Shown: in pieces, positions 18,692-35,582 of the stretch
Position numbering within the stretch: the stretch's first letter is position 1
Layout of the letters: each line of letters opens with the position of its first letter
Origin: an uncultured Erythrobacter sp.
Lineage (GTDB): Bacteria; Pseudomonadota; Alphaproteobacteria; Sphingomonadales; Sphingomonadaceae
Assembly (NCBI GenBank): GCA_947498065.1
Contig: CANMIS010000004.1
Span: 1-64,000, forward strand
DNA: 64,000 nucleotides
Direction: 5' to 3'
The notes under the pieces: generated by a model
What the model was told of the DNA's origin: nothing
The model's database searches: none
The model's input: the letters and a program-made list of their open reading frames with translations, nothing else
Program-made: the position numbers and the translations under genes

Positions 18692-18801
18692 GCACCGCAT
18701 TTCTCTGATCCCGCTTGCACTTGCGGGCGATGCGCGCGAGTAATGCGCGACCGCCGCGAGCATTCCAGCGCGCGGCCACTGCACGGGGACCGATAGCCAG
18801 T

Positions 18802-20331
18802 ATGAGCGCGCGCATGATTGGCCTGATCCTTGGCCCGCTGGTCTTTGCCATCACCGCGATCACCGCCCCGCCCGCCGGGATGCCCAGCGAAGCGTGGCTG
18901 GTCGCCGGGCTCGTCGTGTGGATGGCGGCCTGGTGGATGACAGAGGCGGTGCCGCTGACGGTGACAGCACTACTGCCGTTTGTGATCCTGCCCTTTAGCG
19001 GGGTGTCGACCGGGCGCGAGACGGCCAGCACATATTATTCGCCAATCCTGTTTCTGATCCTGGGCGGCGCGTTTCTGGCGCTCGCGATTGAGCGCACCGG
19101 CCTGCATAAGCGCCTGAGCCTGGCGATCCTGCGCGTGGTGGGCAAAGGCGGCGGGCAGACGCAATTGCTGCTGGCATTCATGATCTCCGCCGCGCTGCTC
19201 TCGATGCTGATTTCCAACACCTCGACCAGCCTGATTATGATGCCCATGGCGCTGGCTGTGCTTTCTGGAGGCGCGCTTTCGCGCGCATCTGGACCTCCCG
19301 CTCCCTCCGCCCTTCCACCCGGAACAGTTTCGGATACGATCCGGGTGGAAGGGCGGAGGGAGCGGGAGGTCCAGCCCCAGGTTTCGGCGGATGCCGAGAC
19401 CCCGCTCAACAAAGAAGGCCTCTCCGGCGCGCTCCCGATGGGCATTGCCTTTGCCGCCAGCATTGGCGGGCTTGGCACCATCGTCGGCTCCCCCACCAAT
19501 GCGATTGCCGTCGGCCTGCTCGACACGATGATCGGGGTGGAGATCACCTTTGCCCAGTGGACCCTGTTTGGCCTGCCCATAGTGATCGTCGGCGTGCCGC
19601 TCGCCGCGCTGATTATCGCCAAGTTTCAAAAGGTGTCGCAGCACCCGTTTGACGTCGCCGCCGCGCGCGATGCGATTGAGACGGGCACGGCCTGGACCAC
19701 GCCGGAAAAACGGCTGATCCCGGTTGCCGTGCTCACCTTCCTCGCGTGGATGACATTGCCGCTGGTCAAACCGTATTTGCCGGAAGGGTCTTGGACCAAT
19801 GGCACCATCGCGATCCTGGCCAGCTTTGCGCTGTTCCTGCTGCCCGATGGCACGGGGCGCGCGCTGCTGAATTGGAAAGAGGCCGACCGCGCGCCGTGGG
19901 GCGTGATCATGATGTTTGGCGGCGGCTTGGCGCTGGCTGGCGGAATGCAGGCCTCAGGGCTAGCGACATGGCTGGGCGAGGCGTTGTTGCCGCTGGAGAA
20001 CCTGCCGCTGATCGTGGTCGCGCTGTGCGTGGTGGCGATGATCGTGGTGATCACCGAATTCGCCAGCAATGTCGCAACCGCAACCGGCATTATCCCGGTG
20101 ATCGCGGCGCTGGTGGTGGCGCTGGGCGCGGACCCGCTGCTGCTCGCAATGCCCGCCGCGCTGGCAGCAAGCTGGGGCTTTATGCTGCCCGCCGGGACCG
20201 GGCCAAACGCGATTGCGTGGTCCACCGGGCGGATCAAGATCGAGCGGATGGTCGGTGCAGGCCTGGTGCTCGATATCGCGGGGATATTTCTGATTGTCGG
20301 GATGGTGTGGGGAATTGCGTGGTTGGTTTGA
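18802..20331 (+). CDS. SLC13/DASS family anion:sodium symporter
   Basis: SNTSTSLIMMPMALAVL, AASIGGLGTIVGSPTNAIA, ITEFASNVATATGIIPVIAAL motifs. Confidence 0.88.
   Translation: MSARMIGLILGPLVFAITAITAPPAGMPSEAWLVAGLVVWMAAWWMTEAVPLTVTALLPFVILPFSGVSTGRETASTYYSPILFLILGGAFLALAIERTGLHKRLSLAILRVVGKGGGQTQLLLAFMISAALLSMLISNTSTSLIMMPMALAVLSGGALSRASGPPAPSALPPGTVSDTIRVEGRREREVQPQVSADAETPLNKEGLSGALPMGIAFAASIGGLGTIVGSPTNAIAVGLLDTMIGVEITFAQWTLFGLPIVIVGVPLAALIIAKFQKVSQHPFDVAAARDAIETGTAWTTPEKRLIPVAVLTFLAWMTLPLVKPYLPEGSWTNGTIAILASFALFLLPDGTGRALLNWKEADRAPWGVIMMFGGGLALAGGMQASGLATWLGEALLPLENLPLIVVALCVVAMIVVITEFASNVATATGIIPVIAALVVALGADPLLLAMPAALAASWGFMLPAGTGPNAIAWSTGRIKIERMVGAGLVLDIAGIFLIVGMVWGIAWLV
19289..19374. 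repeat. GC-rich palindromic element copy 1 (perfect 35-bp arms, 16-nt loop), inside SLC13 CDS
   Basis: CTGGACCTCCCGCTCCCTCCGCCCTTCCACCCGGA-acagtttcggatacga-exact reverse complement. Confidence 0.95.
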
Positions 20332-21148: not shown

Positions 21149-21214
21149 TCCCATCATCGGGCGAGCATTAGAGCAGCTTTCTTACCGTTTCGTTTGGGTG
21201 TTTGCGCGTCCAAC

Positions 21215-21580
21215 GTCATCCCAGCGAAAGGCATTCTCCTAGGCCTGTCGAAGGGCTGGGAGCTCATGGGGCCAAGCGCTGTACTAAGCGGCCCTAGACC
21301 CCAGCCTTCGCTGGGGTGACGGATGGCTACAAAAACTCGTCATGCTGAATTCAGTTCAGCATCCATCGTTGGTCCAACCTCATTTAAGTCGCGCTGGGGA
21401 TGGACCCTGAACCAAGTTCAGGGTGACGTGGGTAATGACGTGGCGTTTCTAGGGCGAGCAACCCGCCTTATTCGTCATCCCGGACTTGATCCGGGATAAC
21501 ACCCTCGGTCTCGCGCTTGTTGCGACGGTTGTCCTGGAAGCGCAGCTGGCCGAAGGTCAACCGAGTTCAGGATGACGGTT
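21215..21580. repeat. Cluster of short REP-like palindromes with shared GTCA(T/C) tags
   Basis: ACCCCAGC-cttc-GCTGGGGT (21298-21317); ATGCTGAA-ttcag-TTCAGCAT (21342-21362); ACCCTGAAC-caa-GTTCAGGGT (21404-21424); ATCCCGGA-cttga-TCCGGGAT (21477-21497). Confidence 0.8.
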
Positions 21581-21802: not shown

Positions 21803-21890
21803 CCGTAGCCGCCCGCACCCTCCGCCCTTCCACCCGGAACCTACCGGGATACCATCCGGGTGGAAGGGCGGAGGGTGCGGGCGGCTACGG
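21803..21890. repeat. GC-rich palindromic element copy 2 (perfect 36-bp arms, 16-nt loop)
   Basis: CCGTAGCCGCCCGCACCCTCCGCCCTTCCACCCGGA-acctaccgggatacca-exact reverse complement. Confidence 0.95.
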
Positions 21891-35458: not shown

Positions 35459-35483
35459 GGAGTCTTATCCTGAGTGCTGGACC

Positions 35484-35557
35484 TCCCGCTCCCTCCGCCC
35501 TTCCACCCGGATGGTAACCCGGTGTGATAATCCGGGTGGAAGGGCGGAGGGAGCGGG
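35484..35557. repeat. GC-rich palindromic element copy 3, between hisH and hisA (27-28 bp perfect inner arms, outer arm mismatched)
   Basis: CCCGCTCCCTCCGCCCTTCCACCCGGAT...ATCCGGGTGGAAGGGCGGAGGGAGCGGG. Confidence 0.93.
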
Positions 35558-35582
35558 TGGCGCGGCTTCGACGACACATACT

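Follow-up and report, generated by a model that had tools for sequence, protein, structure and literature searches.

Our analysis suggests, with good confidence, that the perfect palindrome lying in frame within a transporter gene of this uncultured Erythrobacter sp. is one copy of a non-autonomous, MITE/REP-like foldback family of Erythrobacteraceae, which spreads 3' of genes, is sometimes tolerated in frame, and has arms that template each other. Sequence comparisons provide the evidence: the family and its distribution, in-frame insertions and the corresponding empty sites, purifying selection on the host gene, symmetric evolution of the arms, and loop inversions. The features of interest in the window (the whole stretch of 64,000 nucleotides that was analysed) are as follows.

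18715..20331, + strand: ORF of an SLC13/DASS-family sodium-coupled anion symporter, with the palindrome in frame
19272..19287, + strand: mini-hairpin GCGCGC-TTTC-GCGCGC, paired in the fold centroid
19286..19293, + strand: stretch private to the source strain, GCATCTGGACC versus GCAGCCGAGCC in 2-204 and GCCGCCGCGCC in 3-903-J, 2-911 and G027
19289..19374, no strand assigned: palindrome copy in SLC13, 35-bp perfect arms and a 16-nt loop (ACAGTTTCGGATACGA), with a predicted translation of approximately SGPPAPSALPPGTVSDTIRVEGRREREVQ
19380..19401, + strand: module H (inverted), hairpin GTTTCGGCGGATGCCGAGAC adjoining the palindrome
21803..21890, no strand assigned: second family copy, intergenic, 36-bp perfect arms
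35477..35560, no strand assigned: third family copy, intergenic, 28-bp perfect core (perfect arms 35485-35557)

The initial annotation had described an 86-nt element with perfect 35-bp arms in the SLC13 ORF, and the arms (19289-19323 and 19340-19374, 35 nt each) were indeed 100% complementary around a loop of 16 nt. The folding energy of positions 19262-19415 was -117.7 kcal/mol compared with -63.2 +/- 3.9 kcal/mol for 200 dinucleotide shuffles (z -13.8), which places this copy far beyond chance. A search of the window for inverted repeats (perfect arms of ≥14 nt, spacer of ≤29 nt) returned only 19289-19374, 21803-21890, and 35485-35557; the further copies reported earlier at 21803 and about 35484 are thereby confirmed, and both are intergenic. 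At gathering thresholds, the single Rfam match in the whole window was a tRNA. The mini-hairpin exists where it had been placed and is similar to module B of other family copies. Its assignment to the element did not hold, as it was not conserved in 3-903-J or 2-911 despite the palindrome there, and the ortholog in G002, which has no palindrome, carries related G+C-rich sequence at this position; the mini-hairpin is probably not part of the insertion. The module H hairpin was kept in the palindrome-bearing relatives 3-903-J, 2-204, 2-911, and G030.

The host ORF encodes 538 aa and is stop-free through the palindrome, with a listed start of TTG and the true start probably at a downstream ATG. 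It scored 204.6 bits against PF00939 and 246 bits against NCBIfam TIGR00785 (dass; cut-off 198.6), and SNTST and SNVAT were among the invariant columns, which supports membership in the family; the frame is kept, as stated earlier. The nearest solved structures are animal SLC13 proteins and VcINDY. Flanks of the element had dN/dS values of 0.037-0.106 against three Erythrobacter relatives, indicating purifying selection; with dN/dS of 0.04-0.11 the gene is not a pseudogene, a possibility that the initial annotation had raised. In the AlphaFold model, residues 189-230, flanked by helices 168-186 and 236-254, had pLDDT below 50, and the palindrome is predicted to add a disordered loop that links two transmembrane segments. 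Judged by the predicted translation across the element (a peptide such as SGPPAPSALPPGTVSDTIR), the added loop is Pro/Arg-rich and the gene unbroken.

A total of 33 distinct palindromes were extracted from the source genome (3.2 Mb) and aligned. Their consensus arm is GCCACCCGCGCCCTCC[A/G]CCCTTCCACCCGGA, the loop has 15-19 nt, and the element ends read TTTGTTTGCGTGCC...GCCACCCGC. Every copy in the source genome has arms of approximately 28-36 nt that form terminal inverted repeats, and none has any coding capacity itself. Of 61 genomes searched, 14 of the 37 in the genus contained the family, and the 24 that represent other families of the order had no match. When 84,980 species genomes were scanned with an exact pattern, 88 stretches matched, essentially only in Erythrobacteraceae (Erythrobacter, Altererythrobacter, Qipengyuania, Pelagerythrobacter, Porphyrobacter, and unnamed Erythrobacteraceae), the exceptions being two MAGs labelled just Alphaproteobacteria or Sphingomonadaceae. 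Carriage by phages, plasmids, or viruses was considered and rejected, given that the family was matched neither in IMG/VR viral contigs by exact pattern nor in phage and plasmid records by blastn. No earlier description of the family was found in the open-licence literature. For the analyses below, the 33 copies from the source genome were combined with 82 from other genomes into a sample of 115; because the search pattern dictated the inner 14 nt of these 82 copies, they are informative at outer positions only.

According to a home-made codon-model gene caller, 102 of the 115 sampled copies (approximately 90%) lie outside genes, typically 17-45 nt beyond a gene 3' end (median 24 nt), which provides the count of intra-ORF against intergenic copies envisaged in the initial annotation. 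The other 13 were called in ORFs: five in the SLC13 loop, one in DnaE2, one in an epimerase, and the others near 5' ends. The last group was discounted as insertions and probably reflects start-codon miscalls, for example in proteins beginning MPKLILVRHG or MPELPEVETT. Semi-conserved modules outside the arms suggest that the element may be larger than the palindrome. In some copies a hairpin whose loop is of the ATCC type stands 10-12 nt from the arm (23 observed with stems of ≥8 versus 2.6 expected), the outer motif GGCTCGCTNNCGCTCGC was observed 17 times at a match of ≥12/15 versus 0.1 expected, and the end motif TTTGTTTGCGTGC, read inward, occurs outside the arms of some copies. Furthermore, many copies have T-runs outside both ends, read inward (46 T-runs versus 3 A-runs), whose placement is independent of the direction of the neighbouring gene. 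These T-runs are possibly element ends or a target preference.

A stable G+C-rich hairpin found mostly 17-45 nt past 3' ends could also be an intrinsic terminator of transcription, displaced into a gene in this case. We consider this highly improbable, since the T-runs precede the hairpin on either strand and the A-runs come after it, opposite to the order in a terminator (46 versus 3), and a working terminator in a conserved ORF would be selected out. Palindromy, position near 3' ends, and occasional intragenic copies would likewise suit a REP/REPIN of the classical type, moved by a RAYT (Y1 transposase). This origin appears very unlikely. No Y1 transposase (PF01797) was detected in the source genome, which led us to reject RAYT as the mobiliser, and the domain was absent from 107 of the 114 genomes of the genus (E. 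coli control positive). GTAG stood at the arm boundary in just 29 of 230 arms, too few for a REP tag, and neither the arm consensus nor the outer consensus of the family showed a conserved CGTC. In addition, the element has one long stem instead of two short REPs, and it differs from the CGTC-REP-like repeats found in the same window. The latter are six CGTC-tagged hairpin repeats (e.g., CGTCATCCCGGACTTGATCCGGGAT) clustered at 21214-21577, apparently of the known CGTC REP type and unrelated to the palindrome family.

Across relatives, SLC13 carries the palindrome in nine genomes, always in the same loop, which is bounded by LIMMPMALAVL and GLSGALPMG. The loop measures 33-117 nt without the palindrome and 153, 162, 168, 171, 183, or 207 nt with it, intact or eroded; every palindrome-bearing length is a multiple of 3 and free of stops. 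No palindrome-free loop of equal length was seen, in line with the insertion originally proposed. The palindrome is fully absent from SLC13 of relatives such as G002, G009, G019, and G006. In G027 it is interrupted by another repeat (dN/dS of 0.115 between G000 and G027), and G030 and G129 retain it in eroded form; the gene is intact in all three. The broken copy of G027 and the relatives devoid of the element indicate that SLC13 does not need it. The sequence interrupting the palindrome in G027 is a second short repeat, CCCTCAAG(C/T)AGCGAAGCG(A/G)TAGGGC, which occupies the SLC13 loop of other species: it forms three tandem 36-nt copies in the loop of G031 (L066 2421-2528), and is present also in the loops of G017, G027, and G001 and in the flanks of L135.

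In a protein tree of the SLC13 flanks, the palindrome as a character required 6 changes, at least 3 of them forced by strongly supported branches, and on this reconstruction the element was repeatedly gained or lost at this one loop. Alternatively, the insertion was one ancient event, and the scattered distribution arose by repeated loss rather than by repeated hot-spot insertion. This is a serious contender that we place somewhat below an even chance. The parsimony count permits one gain followed by several losses, and the downstream hairpin CGGCGGATGCCGA is common to G030, 2-911, and the G000 group, with a similar remnant in G129. Apart from the changes forced by the tree, this history has to contend with the reading frame through the element, which in E. 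rubeus is unlike that of the G000 group, and with a CATCCG hairpin whose side varies: the G000 group and G030 have it downstream, G018, G129, and G099 upstream. We do not take the opposite module orientation as proof of independent insertions, an argument weakened by hairpin remnants on both sides in G129.

The picture of a single insertion in one gene, as drawn initially, is not supported, given the several changes at the SLC13 loop and the in-frame copies in three genes: SLC13, DnaE2, and an NAD-epimerase. The DnaE2 copy is located as follows.

L046 2995-3082 (source genome C3:211537): DnaE2 copy, within the helix-hairpin-helix region

This in-frame copy in DnaE2 (error-prone DNA polymerase; NF004225, 1375 bits) occurs in the source genome only, where the site comprises approximately 50 aa including the element, compared with a linker of approximately 10-14 aa in 2-204, 2-911, and E. 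rubeus. The NAD-epimerase of 2-911 has an in-frame copy and is approximately 22 aa longer than in four relatives. Empty sites were seen in relatives for both genes. The insertion sites and linkers are hypervariable, so no target-site duplication is definable.

Variation between the arms is strongly paired. Over the 115 copies, arm position -22 showed 59 symmetric versus 10 asymmetric variants (paired fraction 0.91 versus 0.34 expected), and position -15 showed 35 versus 1. At two orthologous intergenic loci (C1:819712/L118 and C1:653285/L116), the loops are exact or near reverse complements of each other with unchanged flanks. L147 has a one-base insertion in both arms and its ortholog L151 in neither, and the copy at 21803-21890 differs from its ortholog L095 at arm position -28 in both arms. 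In SLC13 itself, the four changes in the private stretch at 19286-19293 match the right outer arm exactly, and the palindrome grows from 30-31 to 35 bp. The symmetric arm changes, the inverted loops, and the rewritten left arm together indicate copying between arms, for which template switching of the quasipalindrome type would be the simplest mechanism. An alternative source of the rewritten left arm is exchange with the copy at 35477, whose left outer arm is CTGGACC, as in the SLC13 copy, and whose right outer arm is the usual GGTGGC. The symmetric arm differences at orthologous loci could also be, in part, ectopic replacement by another copy.

The 70-nt core of the SLC13 palindrome was identical at 70 of 70 positions in 3-903-J and 2-204 and at 69 of 70 in 2-911, although its arms are non-independent, which roughly halves the effective number of sites. 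Between the source strain and 2-911, the SLC13 flanks are approximately 80% identical (flank pS 0.52), and other 70-nt windows of the gene had a mean of 14.1 differences and never fewer than 4. This conservation may reflect constraint at the nucleotide level or a short conversion tract and, being greater than expected of a purely neutral passenger, counts against the passenger reading. In each arm, the purine strand (e.g., window 19340-19374) fits the G-quadruplex pattern GGG-N5-GGG-N4-GGG-N3-GGG; the GGG runs of this strand (GGGTGGAAGGGNGGAGGGNNNGGG) are nearly invariant family-wide, and changes fall in between.

One might thus suppose that the SLC13 palindrome is no passenger and that selection maintains it for an RNA or DNA structure overlapping the coding sequence, for example a membrane-insertion pause, an mRNA-processing site, or a G-quadruplex/hairpin switch. 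The conserved core, set against the more divergent windows and flanks, and the near-invariant GGG tracts would agree with such a role. We regard it as unlikely, because the gene is intact with the palindrome broken in G027 or eroded in G030 and G129, relatives such as G002, G009, G019, and G006 do without it altogether, and a short interspecies conversion tract would yield equal conservation. It is similarly doubtful that a mobile palindrome was domesticated in the transporter gene, selected jointly as hairpin/G-quadruplex and as extra protein loop, with its symmetry renewed by arm-to-arm copying. If this dual selection were true, continual copying between arms would rewrite codons in pairs.

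We therefore favour a mobile foldback family whose in-frame copies are tolerated. The element would consist of a palindrome of approximately 78-90 nt with variable outer modules, and we infer that it is mobilised in trans. Copies would mostly spread to positions shortly downstream of genes, and an occasional copy would land in a variable protein loop with the frame staying open. The palindrome was open in at least 4 of 6 frames in 105 of the 115 copies; being G+C-rich and open in most frames, the element would be translated through and tolerated. The SLC13 loop is accordingly presumed to be translated, and to be neutral to slightly useful. Finally, the arms would template each other by hairpin strand switching or conversion, which would keep the symmetry and flip the loop. 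The range of protein-invading palindromic repeats would then include a free-living group whose genomes are of ordinary size. In this group, repeat DNA can remodel a permissive protein loop again and again, and orthologous copies allow arm-to-arm copying, loop flipping, and in-frame tolerance to be traced stepwise.

Among known systems, the initial annotation had likened the element to the Rickettsia RPEs, with the implication that these are the only precedent. The likeness to RPE-1, RPE-4, and RPE-6 largely holds as to kind: both are palindromic repeats of MITE size, lie between genes and in frame within them, and encode a surface-loop-like peptide, and the Erythrobacter element is lineage-restricted and, from the sequences of SLC13, DnaE2, and epimerase and their empty orthologs, appears in frame with the gene retained. 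It is no member of the RPEs, given that its 88 stretches were found in Erythrobacteraceae or in the two broadly labelled alphaproteobacterial MAGs and in no Rickettsiales host. It belongs to another lineage with no known sequence relation, the comparison being one of behaviour, and it has a long near-perfect stem, about 90% of sampled copies outside genes, and approximately 33 copies in the source genome. As for the implied sole precedent, intragenic REPs are described from numerous bacteria, E. litoralis and S. alaskensis being two of them; the affected genes include DnaE2, and in two Xanthomonas species recB carries different REPs at nearly the same position (PMC3733652). The GTAG/CGTC-tagged REPs (Di Nocera 2013, PMC3733652) resemble our family in being intergenic, mostly just past 3' ends, with intragenic copies. 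They measure 20-40 bp and have a terminal tag, the GTAG type often with a RAYT, whereas the arms of the Erythrobacter element are approximately 30 bp long, and it has neither a conserved tag nor a RAYT. MITEs such as ERIC, NEMIS, RUP, and Nezha are likewise non-autonomous, lineage-restricted, and bounded by inverted repeats, at 70-300 bp; in the Erythrobacter element the arms fill nearly the entire length, and the variable sites define no target-site duplication. The left arm of the source strain recalls quasipalindrome template-switch mutation in E. coli (PMC7202029), in which clustered changes perfect imperfect arms, but the Erythrobacter case is deduced by comparing natural species and concerns a repeat family and coding sequence. 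Overall, we would class the palindrome family as a new palindromic element of the RPE/MITE kind that is specific to its lineage.
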